This document shows, one piece after another, positions 14,416 through 29,009 of a DNA stretch of 64,000 bases. The first letter of the stretch is position 1, and every line of letters starts with the position of its first letter. Under the pieces are notes generated by a model. That model was not told where the DNA came from. It saw nothing but the letters and a program-made list of their open reading frames with translations, and searched no databases. Source of the stretch: Metallumcola ferriviriculae (GTDB lineage: Bacteria; Bacillota; JADQBR01); contig NZ_CP121694.1 of NCBI RefSeq assembly GCF_035573695.1, positions 968,501-1,032,500 on the forward strand. The letters run 5' to 3'. Made by a program: the position numbers and the translations under genes.

Positions 14416-15036
14416 ATGATGAAGAATCTATTCTTCGTTATTACTATTTTGGTGGTGTCAGTTGTACTGACGGGTTTCCTTACTCAAAGTAAAGTAAGCT
14501 CATTACATCACCGTGATATGGAAATTTCCCAACATCAACTGATTGATATCAGTGGGGAAATAAAGCGTGTCATATTGGCGAAGCGCACAGCGCGTGAGGA
14601 AGTAAAAATATTTGCTGAAAAATATAATACTACCCCAGACATAATTCAGCTTATAAATGAAAAGGCAAAAAAATATGCTTTGCCCAAAGAGATGGTCTAT
14701 AATTTGATCGAAACTGAGAGCAAATTTCGCCCGGAAGCTGTTAATAATCAAAATACCAACGGCACAGTGGATAGGGGCCTAATGCAAATAAACAGTAGAT
14801 ACGCACCTTGGTTTGCGCAAAAAGTGGGGATTGATAATTTCAACTATAAAATGTTGTTTCAACCGGAAATAAATTTGGAAATCGGGATGTGGTACCTAAA
14901 ATCCATGTACAATCGGTATCACAACTGGCACGCAGTGCTAACTGCATACAACAAAGGTCCCACCGGTATGAAAAGGTATTACCGCAGAACCGGTGCATAT
15001 CAAAGTAGATACAGTGCGGTTGTTTTATCTGAATAA
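14416..15036 (+). CDS. Lytic transglycosylase, SLT domain
   Basis: A 206-residue exported murein hydrolase. An N-terminal membrane anchor or signal (LFFVITILVVSVVLTGFL) is followed by a short linker and an SLT domain. The catalytic Glu is in LIETESKFRPEAV, followed by GLMQINSRYAPWF and LTAYNKGPTGMKRYY. These enzymes cleave the glycan strand with formation of 1,6-anhydro-MurNAc. AAAGGAGTGG precedes the ATG. It is a single gene closed by its own hairpin. A role in spore or cell-wall remodelling is plausible but not shown by context. Confidence 0.88.
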   Translation: MMKNLFFVITILVVSVVLTGFLTQSKVSSLHHRDMEISQHQLIDISGEIKRVILAKRTAREEVKIFAEKYNTTPDIIQLINEKAKKYALPKEMVYNLIETESKFRPEAVNNQNTNGTVDRGLMQINSRYAPWFAQKVGIDNFNYKMLFQPEINLEIGMWYLKSMYNRYHNWHAVLTAYNKGPTGMKRYYRRTGAYQSRYSAVVLSE

Positions 15037-15115
15037 ATTATACACATTATTAAAAGTGTAAAAGAGAAGTTTTCTGGGGAAGAGTTTTATGTTTTTACAA
15101 TGCTGCATTTGAAAT

Positions 15116-24909: not shown

Positions 24910-25590
24910 TTAATGGTGGGAATATTTTTTAAATGGTTTTTCCATGCAGATAATCTCTATAAATTTATTAACCAAATAACTATCAAATTGAATATTACTA
25001 TTATTTTTAAGTTCATTAAAACAGTCTTTTAAAGATCGTTTTTTTTGGTATGGTCTTGCGGATATCATTGCATCAAAGGCGTCAGCTATACTAATAATTT
25101 TTGCACCTAACGAAATCTGGTCCCGGTTCATTCCGTAGTACCCAGTACCGTCCATTTTTTCGTGATGTTGACCAACAATAGGCAATATATTAGACGCCCA
25201 TGGATATTTGGTTAAGGCAAGCATTCCGTTCTTTGGATGTAGTTTTACCAGTTCCCATTCTGTATGTGTTAGCTTGCTTGGCTTATCAAGTATAGCAGTT
25301 GGTGTATATATCTTACCAATATCATGCAACAAAGCTCCTAGGGTAATTTTTACTAGTTCATTATGAGAAAGCTTTAATTTAGCAGCTAATAAGTAGGAAA
25401 GCAGCGAAACATTTAAACTGTGTTGAAAGGTTAGGAAGTGGTACTTATTAATCTTTTCTATCAACGTTACTATACTTTTAACAGCAGTTTCGTCAAATTC
25501 AGCTTCCTTTACTTCATTAATTTTTAGTTTGTTTAAGACATAGAATAAATCGGGCACAGGAAACGCTTGTTGTCGTAAAACAGGAATCAA
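24910..25590 (-). CDS. HD-GYP domain protein (probable cyclic-di-GMP phosphodiesterase)
   Basis: An HD-GYP hydrolase module with LLHDIGKIYTPTAIL, HPKNGMLAL, IVGQHHEKMDGTGYYG and SIADAFDAMIS, i.e. the metal-binding HD, H, HH and D residues. The canonical GYP appears as GYY, so activity is likely but not assured. No sensor domain is visible beyond a short N-terminus. The start TTG 25590 has AAAGGAG 8 bp upstream; ATG codons further out (25632, 25623) lack a ribosome site. It lies between the kinase and the agr-like locus, on the same strand but probably separately transcribed. Confidence 0.8.
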   Translation of the reverse strand: MIPVLRQQAFPVPDLFYVLNKLKINEVKEAEFDETAVKSIVTLIEKINKYHFLTFQHSLNVSLLSYLLAAKLKLSHNELVKITLGALLHDIGKIYTPTAILDKPSKLTHTEWELVKLHPKNGMLALTKYPWASNILPIVGQHHEKMDGTGYYGMNRDQISLGAKIISIADAFDAMISARPYQKKRSLKDCFNELKNNSNIQFDSYLVNKFIEIICMEKPFKKYSHH

Positions 25591-25861
25591 GATACTTGCT
25601 CCTTTCGGCAGCTCGGCAGCCATAGTTTTCACCGTAGGCCCATAGCTTTGCGCCCTTGTCTTTCGAACAAGTTTGCCTTTATCGTAATATCATGCATAAC
25701 AATATTTTGCCAAATTCGACAACACTGTTCAACCTAGTGGTTGCATATAACCATCTATCGTGCTTAATTAACCAATTGTCTGGGGTGTTAAAGCAAGTTG
25801 TTTACAGGGATGTTAATTTTAGGATATTCTTTCGGCCCAGCTAAAGTCTATGAAAGTAATA

Positions 25862-25896
25862 AGTTCACCCCTTCAATTAGAATGAAGGGGTGAACT
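25862..25896 (-). terminator. Terminator of the agr-like operon
   Basis: AGTTCACCCCTTCA (25862-25875) and TGAAGGGGTGAACT (25883-25896) form a perfect stem. The stop codon of the response regulator lies in the 7-nt loop. Confidence 0.85.
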
Positions 25897-26602
25897 CATT
25901 TTTCAGCTTTTCAAATTGATACCTGCTCATTAAGGCCTTCTTGTCATAATTCAAGAACTCAATTTCGTAAGACCTATTGCCTAAGTCAATAACTTTTAGT
26001 ATCTTTTTTTTGTTTACAATGAATGATTGATGTACTCGCAAGAAAACATCCTTATCCATGGCAGTTTCCATTTCGTTAAGCGTCTGTTGAACTTTACAAA
26101 TATCGAAGTCGGAATGTACTAATGCCTCTTTTCCTAACTTTTCAATAAAGATAATATCTTGCGGATCAACAAAAAAGGTTCCGTGTTTATTTTTTAAGAT
26201 TAGTTTACCACTTTTTTCTTTTCTTCTTTTTAGGCGTTGGGCAAGCGAAGACAACACATCGTTAATCTTTTCTTTTTTTATTGGTTTTAAAATGTACTCA
26301 AAGGGATGTACCGCAAAAGAATCAATAGCATACTTAGAATAACCGGTGATAAAAACAAATTCCATATCTGGATAGATATTGTACAACATTTTTGCCGTAT
26401 CTATTCCGTTTAAGTTTTCTTCTGCGTTCAATTCTATATCCAACATTGCTACATTTGGTTTATATTTGTATGTCAGCTCAATGGCTTCCTTCCCACTTGA
26501 GGTAGCTATAACTTCTGATACTAGTGGACTTTGCTGGATAATCTGTTTCAGGTATCTCTTTGTATAGTGTTCATCTTCTAGAAGCAAAACCGTAAACAAC
26601 AC
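25877..26602 (-). CDS. LytTR-family response regulator (AgrA-like)
   Basis: 241 residues: an N-terminal receiver domain (LLLEDEHYT, phosphoacceptor in VAMLDIELN, VFITGYSKYAI) and a C-terminal LytTR DNA-binding domain (IIFIEKLGKEALVHSDF, FLRVHQSFIVNKKKIL). LytTR regulators bind paired direct repeats about 21 bp apart; such a pair lies upstream of the operon at 28783-28813. The start is GTG 26602, just after the AgrD-like gene. It is the output of the quorum-sensing locus. The targets beyond autoregulation are unknown. Confidence 0.9.
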   Translation of the reverse strand: MLFTVLLLEDEHYTKRYLKQIIQQSPLVSEVIATSSGKEAIELTYKYKPNVAMLDIELNAEENLNGIDTAKMLYNIYPDMEFVFITGYSKYAIDSFAVHPFEYILKPIKKEKINDVLSSLAQRLKRRKEKSGKLILKNKHGTFFVDPQDIIFIEKLGKEALVHSDFDICKVQQTLNEMETAMDKDVFLRVHQSFIVNKKKILKVIDLGNRSYEIEFLNYDKKALMSRYQFEKLKNEFTPSF

Positions 26603-26614
26603 AATATCAATCCT

Positions 26615-26746
26615 TTACTTTAAAGCTTCAGGAACATCGGGTTCGTATAGTGACCACCAACTTTGTGTACTTACACCCATCAGCGCAGTAAACAGCGCTA
26701 CTGAGGCCAGACTGGATAGGCTCCATACTTTAATTTTTTTCAACAT
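26615..26746 (-). CDS. agrD: AgrD-like cyclic lactone autoinducer precursor (Ser-type)
   Basis: A 43-residue gene whose ATG overlaps the agrB-like stop (TAATG), with GGAGGTG 7-11 bp upstream. The product has a basic amphipathic start (MLKKIKVWSLSSLA), a hydrophobic stretch, then STQSWWSLYEPDVPEALK. This matches the AgrD plan: leader, core peptide, and an acidic YEP-VPE tail recognised by AgrB. At the ring-forming position, where Cys is usual (CWWFFYQP-type cores), this protein has Ser29. It contains no Cys at all, so a true lactone, as in Staphylococcus intermedius, is predicted. The likely ring is S29-W-W-S-L or S29 through Y34. Confidence 0.85.
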   Translation of the reverse strand: MLKKIKVWSLSSLASVALFTALMGVSTQSWWSLYEPDVPEALK

Positions 26747-27378
26747 TAGTTTTCACCTCCTTTATTTGGTATATCTAATAAATTATCAATAAATCTAATT
26801 GGTTTATACCCGAAGGGTGTCATTAGCAACGAACTAGCACCCAGACCCACTAAAAGGGCAAAGGCCTCCTGCCTTCTATCAAACATTAACAATATCAAGG
26901 AAGCGGTTACTATTCCCAGCAAAATTCTTATTGTCTTGATCTTTTGTTGTGCTCTTAATTTAGGATTAACGATGGTTTTTTTTTCAGTTCCTGCAGGGAC
27001 CCAGCGGTAAACTGTTTGGGCAGTCACCAGCGTCACAAAGAGAAGAAAGAAGAGTAGAAAATTATCAGTTACGTTTACCAGTGACAACCGAGCTAATATC
27101 AGCAGCATCAGCACACCTAAAACCAGGCATCGTAGGTAAGTACTCAAATGTACGCCGCCGCCAAAAAGGCGCATTGGGATAAATGATAACAAAACAAATA
27201 ACATTGGCCAGCTGATGCCCAAAAAGTATGAAAGGATAAGCAGGCTGATTAACTTAGTGAAAGAGCCTAAAATAATTTCCAGGCCGTATGCATAAACCTC
27301 GATTTGTTGATCAGTTTCAATATTGTGACTAATGGCTTGCGCCAGAACTAAGGACAGCTTTTTTATCACCTTTATCAC
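26746..27378 (-). CDS. agrB: AgrB-like peptide-processing membrane endopeptidase
   Basis: A 210-residue membrane protein with the AgrB catalytic pair: His77 in GGGVHLSTY and Cys84 in LRCLV, the same seven-residue spacing as in S. aureus AgrB. It should cleave the AgrD tail and cyclise the peptide. The start is GTG 27378, or GTG 27369 with better spacing to GAAGG. It overlaps the upstream kinase gene by 50 bp and the downstream agrD by 1 bp, so translation is coupled. Confidence 0.88.
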   Translation of the reverse strand: MIKVIKKLSLVLAQAISHNIETDQQIEVYAYGLEIILGSFTKLISLLILSYFLGISWPMLFVLLSFIPMRLFGGGVHLSTYLRCLVLGVLMLLILARLSLVNVTDNFLLFFLLFVTLVTAQTVYRWVPAGTEKKTIVNPKLRAQQKIKTIRILLGIVTASLILLMFDRRQEAFALLVGLGASSLLMTPFGYKPIRFIDNLLDIPNKGGEN

Positions 27379-28243
27379 CCTTCACTGGTATGGAGACAAT
27401 AAAAGTAGTTTTTTCTTTTAGAATGACTTTTATATTTCCATTGTATTTTGAAACCAATTTTTTCACCAAATGTAAGCCATAGCCTCTGGCTTCCGAAAGT
27501 TTTGTAGTATAACCGGCATTAAATATTTTGGTCGAATTTTTTTCCGATATAGTCACTCCACTGTTGGAAACATAAAAGTTGATATAACCATTTTCCTTTT
27601 TTATCTCTACGGAGACGCGTTTTTTGCCTTTAAGTGGTAACACAGCCTCCAATGCGTTATCTATCAGATTACCTAAAATGCTGCATAATTCCCAAGAATT
27701 TACATGAAGACGGGACAAATCACATTTTACGTTAAAAGCAAATTCAATCCCTTTACTTTCCCCGACCTGTTGTTTAGTATTTAACAGAGCGGTTAAAGCG
27801 GGGTGCCCTACTTGAATTGTATCCTGTAAATACCAATATTCCTCCACCAACTCCTCTAGATAAGACTCTGCCGCTTCTATTTCCCCCAGATAGATCATGG
27901 CCTGAAGAGTTTGGATATGTCTTGTATGTTCGTGTTTCTGTGATTGTAGTAATGTCAGTAAGGTTTCAATGTTACTAAGGTGTTCTTTCAACAAGCTGAC
28001 TTCGGTAATTTTCTTTGTATTTTCCTCATGTTTTTTAATTGATAAAATAATCAGCACAGTTAAAACGGCAATAATAATATCTATATAAGGCAATAGCCGT
28101 TCTAAAGCATAAAAACTTTTTTCTATGTAAACATAATGATTTACCATAAGTATAAAAAAAGTCTGTAACAAAATAATTATAATTGCCCAATAATTGCTGT
28201 ATTTACTCAAGGTTCTCATTCCTAATATTCTCGCTAAGGTCAT
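27329..28243 (-). CDS. AgrC/CitS-like histidine kinase with reduced membrane domain
   Basis: 304 residues: two N-terminal helices (AIIIILLQTFFILMV; IDIIIAVLTVLIIL), then a cytoplasmic GHKL kinase with the His region QKHEHTRHIQTLQ, N-box LGNLIDNALEA and G-box ARGYGLHLVKKLV. Canonical AgrC has six helices in one chain; here most helices are supplied by the overlapping upstream gene. The start is uncertain: ATG 28243 or ATG 28219. It should phosphorylate the LytTR regulator at 25877. Confidence 0.85.
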   Translation of the reverse strand: MTLARILGMRTLSKYSNYWAIIIILLQTFFILMVNHYVYIEKSFYALERLLPYIDIIIAVLTVLIILSIKKHEENTKKITEVSLLKEHLSNIETLLTLLQSQKHEHTRHIQTLQAMIYLGEIEAAESYLEELVEEYWYLQDTIQVGHPALTALLNTKQQVGESKGIEFAFNVKCDLSRLHVNSWELCSILGNLIDNALEAVLPLKGKKRVSVEIKKENGYINFYVSNSGVTISEKNSTKIFNAGYTTKLSEARGYGLHLVKKLVSKYNGNIKVILKEKTTFIVSIPVKGDKGDKKAVLSSGASH

Positions 28244-28694
28244 AGAGAACGAAATCGAATTTAACTACAATTATATATAGTAAAATCATAAGAACAGCAG
28301 AGGGGATAAACAGCCCAAAATTCCACCAAGGATTGGTTTTCGTAATATCTAGGTCAATTGATAAGGTATTAAATAAAATCGGCAGGGTTAGAAATTGTGT
28401 AACACCAGTCAACAGAGCGCCAGTCATAACACAGATAAATCCTTTTAGAAGCGGTACCTGAGAAAAAGCGTATAATAATAAGGTTCCGAACACCAACATA
28501 ACTATTGTATGTAACCCGAAGAAAACAGGTAATAACCTTGCCAAATAGCCGACAAAAGCAGTTAAGAAGGAAATTAGCAGCAACTGTTTAACGGTTATCT
28601 TAATATTAAACAGTCTTAAGCTTAGTGACAGCAGTAGAAACGTTTCCGGCACACTTTCGACTAAAGCAATATACCAAGGTATAGGATGAACCAA
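28203..28694 (-). CDS. Five-helix membrane protein, probable detached AgrC sensor domain
   Basis: 163 residues with about five transmembrane helices (ESVPETFLLLSLSLRLF; LLISFLTAFVGYLARLL; IVMLVFGTLLLYAF; ICVMTGALLTGVTQFL; LFIPSAVLMILLYIIVV). The initial VESVPETF resembles the start of AgrC-type sensors. It ends at NIRNENLE, within the kinase gene, in a different frame (41-bp overlap). I infer that it forms the peptide-sensing part of a split AgrC receptor; other roles are possible. It starts at TTG after GGGGGAG and is the first gene of the operon. Confidence 0.65.
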   Translation of the reverse strand: MVHPIPWYIALVESVPETFLLLSLSLRLFNIKITVKQLLLISFLTAFVGYLARLLPVFFGLHTIVMLVFGTLLLYAFSQVPLLKGFICVMTGALLTGVTQFLTLPILFNTLSIDLDITKTNPWWNFGLFIPSAVLMILLYIIVVKFDFVLYDLSENIRNENLE

Positions 28695-28782
28695 AGGAAC
28701 TCCCCCTAAAATTTAATTTGATATATTACTTAGGGACTTTGTACTAATTCTCCTTTTTTCAACACTTTCTTTCAAAAAAGTG

Positions 28783-28813
28783 TATTTAACCACATAACCG
28801 ACATATTTAACCA
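28783..28813 (-). promoter_or_regulatory. Putative LytTR (AgrA-type) binding site, paired direct repeat
   Basis: TATTTAACCA occurs exactly at 28783-28792 and 28804-28813, start-to-start 21 bp (two helical turns), as LytTR regulators require. On the minus strand each reads TGGTTAAATA, with the GTTA core of AgrA sites. It lies about 90 bp upstream of the first agr-like gene. The rest of the gap 28695-29009 shows an inverted repeat ACACTTT/AAAGTGT at about 28762-28783 and no gene. Confidence 0.65.
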
Positions 28814-29009
28814 TTTTCATGAAACTACCCAGTGATGTTATGGTGCTTTTTCCCCAACACCTGACAACGTGACATAAATGAAGAACAAACTATCTAGACC
28901 CTTACCAACTTGAGGAATTAAATTCCTGGCAGGAATTGGCTGCTTCTAGGTCTTTTTGCAAAAAAAGTTCCATAAAATACTACAAAAAGTAGTATTTGGA
29001 GGGATTAAA

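Follow-up and report, generated by a model that had tools for sequence, protein, structure and literature searches.

A probable agr quorum-sensing operon in Metallumcola ferriviriculae with a serine-type signal precursor and a putative two-protein receptor

Peptide signals of the agr type that are closed through a serine have been described in several bacteria. In Clostridium thermocellum, LC-MS/MS proved that the AgrD pentapeptide is a lactone between Ser25 and Phe29, with Tyr30 as the next residue; growth is slowed by the peptide, whose gene responds to xylose and not to density (PMC5322536). Staphylococcus pseudintermedius and Enterococcus faecalis also make serine lactones (PMC12312760). 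In Clostridium perfringens, the transcript of agrB and agrD also covers two genes upstream of them that encode hypothetical proteins; complementation succeeded only with these two genes included, an extra promoter being a confounder (PMC2706048). Here we describe an agr-type locus within 64,000 nucleotides of the M. ferriviriculae genome (hereafter the window), in which five genes, all of them open reading frames, follow each other on the minus strand in the transcription order 163-aa membrane protein, GHKL/SpoOB-type kinase, AgrB, AgrD and LytTR response regulator, and end at a strong hairpin (Table 1). We consider it quite probable that they make up an agr quorum-sensing operon that is intact and regulates itself, with a serine-type signal and a receptor of two proteins.

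Table 1. Window coordinates of the agr-type operon, its putative control elements and a candidate target gene
Feature	Coordinates	Strand	Basis or remark
Operator-like direct repeat, TGGTTAAATA-N11-TGGTTAAATA, 21-bp period	28783..28813	-	upstream of operon
Promoter-like hexamers, TTGAAA-17-GAGAAT	28747..28775	-	consensus scan, with as many hits as in shuffles; just downstream of repeat
Putative sensor half of receptor, 163 aa, five membrane helices, TTG start, motif RxLPxxFGxH	28203..28694	-	AlphaFold2; fusions in 7 loci
Putative kinase half of receptor, GHKL/SpoOB type, 304 aa, about two membrane helices	27329..28243	-	Pfam HATPase_c, HATPase_c_5, SPOB_a
agrB, processing membrane peptidase	26746..27378	-	Pfam AgrB 2e-33
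agrD ribosome site, AAAGGAGG	26756..26763	-	sequence; 9 nt ahead of ATG
agrD, 43-aa signal precursor, Ser type	26615..26746	-	TIGR04223
Predicted ring codons Ser29-Trp30-Trp31-Ser32-Leu33 (AGT TGG TGG TCA CTA)	26648..26662	-	alignment of 112 AgrDs; cleavage by analogy
AgrA-like LytTR response regulator, GTG start	25877..26602	-	Pfam Response_reg and LytTR
Terminator-like hairpin, 14 pairs, at operon end	25862..25896	.	sequence
Weaker operator-like repeat, 3 mismatches	25744..25774	-	before HD-domain gene
HD-domain protein, possible regulator target	24910..25632	-	Pfam HD_5 4.4e-30

The signal precursor and its peptidase

The agrD gene comprises 43 codons, and its translation, MLKKIKVWSLSSLASVALFTALMGVSTQSWWSLYEPDVPEALK, is without any cysteine. 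The NCBIfam AgrD model TIGR04223 matches the peptide with 36.7 bits (cut-off 19, E 3.3e-9) and recovered it again when all six frames of the entire 3.72-Mb genome were searched (E 5.5e-8), which excludes a chance match and identifies the gene as real. It is flanked by a Pfam AgrB gene and a LytTR response regulator gene, and its ATG overlaps the agrB stop codon by 1 bp (TAATG, the A being common to both). An initial sequence-only reading had proposed an AgrD-type gene between agrB-like and agrA-like genes, with an ideal ribosome site and a 1-bp overlap, and both the family models and the junction bear this out. It had also called the gene unannotated, a term that can refer only to the window itself, which carries no annotation, since the peptide matches a curated family model. 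Identity as a DWW-type pheromone was rejected, the NCBIfam match to that family being weak (12.6 bits against a cut-off of 29).

In the alignment with relatives, Ser29 occupies the column of the ring cysteine, where AgrDs carry Cys or Ser five residues ahead of an aromatic/His-[QE]-P tail; in the window this tail is Y34-E35-P36, a form of the conserved Y/H-[QE]-P. The predicted signal is a five-residue lactone closed through Ser29, S-W-W-S-L, and cleavage would fall ahead of Tyr34 by analogy with C. thermocellum. The earlier claims of a precursor without cysteine, in which serine replaces the ring cysteine, are thus upheld, and the serine lactone with adjacent tryptophans that it had predicted is the natural expectation from the position of Ser29.

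The AgrB domain of the neighbouring protein retains the catalytic His77 and Cys84, seven residues apart and invariant across 16 aligned proteins, and this AgrB is the only intact one found in the genome. A second, decayed agr locus lies at genome position about 3010300-3020400 (L032 and L137). It has a split receptor pair, behind which no more than the C-terminal ~80 aa of an AgrB remain, and two Cys-type AgrD-like peptides (CIGWFYEPRKP). Next to each peptide lie a LytTR regulator, broken in one case, and secreted proteins, one of which is C39-peptidase-like. Processing of these Cys-type peptides may depend on the window AgrB alone. Searches of plasmid and phage collections found no clostridial agr locus; an AgrB-like protein of 29% identity was seen at 14430-15056 of NZ_CP061968.1, a 27-kb unannotated record labelled as a Klebsiella pneumoniae plasmid, which is possibly a foreign contig.

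Serine and cysteine rings across the phylum

AgrDs were detected by profile in genome searches and in collected loci, and each was assigned to a ring type by the residue that precedes the aromatic/His-[QE]-P tail by five places. The sample from the phylum came to 112 distinct peptides, of which 74 carry Cys at this place, 37 carry Ser and one carries Thr; because sampling was guided by TIGR04223 matches, most of them good, the fractions are estimates that hold for this phylum alone. The serine is encoded by AGY, one step from Cys, in 31 of the 37 and by TCN, which is not one step away, in the other six; the codon of Ser29 is AGT, one step from TGT.

We then labelled 85 AgrBs on a tree according to which ring residue the adjacent AgrD has, counting the single Thr with Ser. 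The labels require 10 changes, compared to 24.7 when shuffled, and none of 500 shuffles was as low. The window AgrB falls inside a group of 23 rows, 19 of them Ser (SH-aLRT 97), and its nearest relative, in genome G214, is 43% identical and accompanied by the core SVFALYEPDIPE. On the AgrB tree the serine ring is a clade-wide trait. A LytTR regulator is encoded alongside 13 of 26 Ser/Thr-type AgrDs versus 2 of 40 Cys-type ones (Fisher p 3e-5, related loci not being independent).

The comparison with relatives, which the sequence-only reading had put forward as a check, therefore agrees with it on Ser29 in the ring column and contradicts it on rarity: serine-type AgrDs make up about one third of those sampled (37/112) and are spread clade-wide, and the chemistry itself is proven by LC-MS/MS in C. 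thermocellum (PMC5322536). The survey points to oxygen-ester signals as a standard option of whole clades, and because serine occurs in about a third of the sampled signals of this phylum, peptide searches that require a cysteine would miss them. Some unusual precursors were seen along the way. The AgrD of L018 (1501-1677, genome G004), TGFWSYQPEVP, is the only one of the 112 with Thr in the ring column and would give a threonine lactone, and L103 and L113 carry short Ser-Gly AgrDs (SGSFGYQP, SGIAYYQP), with sensor and kinase genes on the strand opposite to agrB-agrD.

The putative receptor genes and the repeat upstream of the operon

The 163-aa protein matched no Pfam or NCBIfam family, and neither sequence nor fold comparison with solved structures in the PDB returned a relative. 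Its AlphaFold2 model, built from 72 aligned sequences, consists of five long helices (mean pLDDT 93.5), with the motif RxLPxxFGxH between helices 2 and 3 and with Arg53, Gly60 and His62 nearly invariant. The true start of the kinase gene behind it may be 28219, and His104, an assignment read from sequence, is its candidate phospho-histidine. Where AgrC is a single protein with 6-7 membrane helices and a GHKL kinase, the window thus has two open reading frames, of 163 and 304 aa, a division that the sequence-only reading had not mentioned.

Among 66 loci with enough flanking sequence, the small protein is encoded by a separate gene in 49 and fused to a kinase in 7, no kinase was detected nearby in 22, and the order small protein-agrB-agrD is found in many loci. 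The fused proteins align to the staphylococcal AgrC profile of 414 positions over most of its length (L034 33-430 to positions 12-395, L120 25-428 to 8-395 and L035 72-435 to 44-396), and the model of L034 shows roughly seven membrane helices that continue into the kinase (mean pLDDT 88, pTM 0.71). Five of the lone small proteins match the AgrC model weakly, the best with 2.3e-4. The profile of the small protein did not match the N-terminus of L109, the sole full-length classical AgrC recovered, so the link to AgrC comes mainly from the fusions. We conclude that the receptor in the window is most likely an AgrC in two pieces.

A frameshift as the origin of the split was rejected: two open reading frames are present in most relatives, and their frames and overlaps vary. 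At eight sensor-kinase junctions (L050, L036, L127, L086, L102, L079, L122 and L012) the two genes share a frame, with a stop between them and a start codon soon after, which looks like fission or fusion through the gain or loss of one stop. The five-helix protein also occurs in tandem, with two copies per agr locus, in L095 (2100-3278), L078 (4748-5816) and L113 (1879-3029). In the kinase-less loci, the small protein either pairs with kinases encoded elsewhere or has another role. More broadly, we put forward as a tentative idea, for which the odds seem to us somewhat short of even, that agr systems across this part of the Bacillota generally use the free-standing five-helix protein as a receptor subunit that has been overlooked, the sensing half of AgrC made as a separate protein and able to pair with different kinases, adjacent or elsewhere; if true, it would supply the missing receptor in many agrBD loci seemingly without AgrC.

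The response regulator has receiver and LytTR domains, with Asp55 as the receiver aspartate (read from sequence). It scores 38.3 bits against the AgrA equivalog model NF046049 (cut-off 400) and is described here as AgrA-like, not as an AgrA ortholog. Upstream of the operon, where the sequence-only reading had pointed to a promoter region near 28780, TATTTAACCA is present twice, 21 bp apart, in line with the spacing of about 21 bp expected for direct repeats at an AgrA target promoter. Repeats were scored at all spacings from 12 to 40 and compared with 200 simulations. Of the 14 operons that include an agrA-type gene, 9 have a repeat of spacing 21, where 0.7 would be expected and no simulation gave more than 3; the 24 operons without agrA have none. 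The repeated words vary between lineages while the 21-nt period stays, as expected of co-evolving LytTR regulators. An imperfect palindrome, ACACTTTCTT/AAAAAAGTGT (28762-28783), directly follows the repeat, over the possible -35 region. A 35-aa open reading frame that overlaps the repeat (28713-28820) was not accepted as a gene, since it lacks a ribosome site and since the 21-nt period is preserved in related operons whose sequences there are unrelated.

Allowing up to 3 mismatches, the operator-like pattern occurs at three sites only in the whole genome, compared to 4 hits for a control pattern. One of the three is the repeat upstream of the operon; one, lying inside a gene, was discarded as an operator; the third precedes the HD-domain gene, which for this reason is a candidate target, a weak one because the control pattern gave those 4 hits.

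A working model and its alternatives in the light of described systems

The genes, the serine in the ring column, the conservation of catalytic residues, the receptor in its split and fused forms and the repeat can all be read from the sequences. From them we infer a cleavage site, a lactone, a receptor assembly and a mode of regulation, as follows. AgrB, through His77 and Cys84, would cut AgrD between Leu33 and Tyr34, and the ring would be closed onto the hydroxyl of Ser29 to give the five-residue lactone, which would keep a short tail at its N-terminus. The five-helix membrane protein would sense the peptide outside the cell; together with the two-helix GHKL kinase, the product of a separate gene, it would form an AgrC-like receptor. 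Phosphate would then pass from this kinase to the LytTR regulator, and the regulator would bind the 21-bp-period repeat before the operon, closing a positive feedback loop, and probably also the weaker repeat ahead of the HD-domain gene.

The 163-aa protein might instead be an accessory of AgrB and AgrD, acting in export, maturation or self-protection, with the two-helix kinase sensing the peptide alone or sensing something else. Such a role would fit the 22 loci in which the small protein stands with agrB and agrD and no kinase was detected nearby, the frequent order small protein-agrB-agrD and the lack of a profile match to the N-terminus of L109. We nevertheless judge it fairly unlikely, in view of the seven kinase fusions, whose products match AgrC nearly end to end, of the weak AgrC matches of lone members, and of the kinases without a fused small protein, which by our reading keep only about two membrane helices. 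The reading of the 163-aa protein as the sensing half of the receptor is therefore retained. As to the signal, several Ser and Thr residues near the core would allow a ring through Ser32, Ser26 or Thr27, or AgrB could release a linear peptide; this is quite improbable, since only Ser29 occupies the ring column, the five-residue lactone of C. thermocellum uses the same column before Tyr (PMC5322536), and serine is kept there across the whole AgrB clade.

A lactone through Ser29 could also be made and serve mainly in stress or growth control instead of counting cells, as has been suggested for C. thermocellum, whose peptide slows growth and whose gene follows xylose (PMC5322536). In the window, however, agrD shares one operon with the receptor, kinase and LytTR regulator genes and with an operator-like repeat, the layout of a feedback circuit, and a role of this kind appears unlikely. 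The notion that the locus is a relic, in which the serine arose by a chance Cys-to-Ser mutation in a dying system, draws on the single step between AGT and TGT and on the decay of the second agr locus of the same genome. We give it hardly any credence, given that the five genes are all open, that the catalytic residues are kept, and that serine is clade-wide and encoded by TCN in some relatives. The intact, self-regulating operon accordingly remains our preferred reading.

Among described systems, C. perfringens agrBD has a Cys ring (PMC12312760), unlike the serine of the window. The Clostridioides difficile agr2 AIP, NSA[SSWVA], is likewise clostridial and, going by the listed sequence alone, has serine first in the ring, and the gene order given in the same source, agrB2D2C2A2, differs from that of the window (PMC12312760). 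With E. faecalis Fsr/GBAP the locus shares an agr-type organisation and a serine lactone (predicted in the window), whereas GBAP has a 9-residue ring, compared to the 5-residue ring predicted here, and the gene order fsrBDCA (PMC12312760). The agr system of S. pseudintermedius, with the AIP RIPT[STGFF], shares agrB and agrD, an AgrC kinase, a LytTR-type AgrA and the serine lactone, again predicted in the window (PMC12312760); its order is agrBDCA with a one-gene AgrC, in contrast to the order sensor-kinase-agrB-agrD-agrA and the AgrC in two pieces proposed here. C. thermocellum AgrD (Clo1313_2818) shares serine in place of cysteine, a 5-residue ring and cleavage before Tyr, followed by a conserved Pro; it lies outside any agr operon, with no partner genes identified (PMC5322536), whereas agrB, receptor, kinase and regulator genes adjoin agrD in the window. 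Given the precedents in C. thermocellum, S. pseudintermedius, E. faecalis and C. difficile agr2, the serine ring is of an already known kind, and the peptide of the window, with its predicted ring S-W-W-S-L, would be a new member of it. The split receptor seems to be the newer part, and it matters more than the serine ring, as it offers a concrete candidate sensing partner, marked by the motif RxLPxxFGxH, for agrBD loci in which no AgrC has been recognised.
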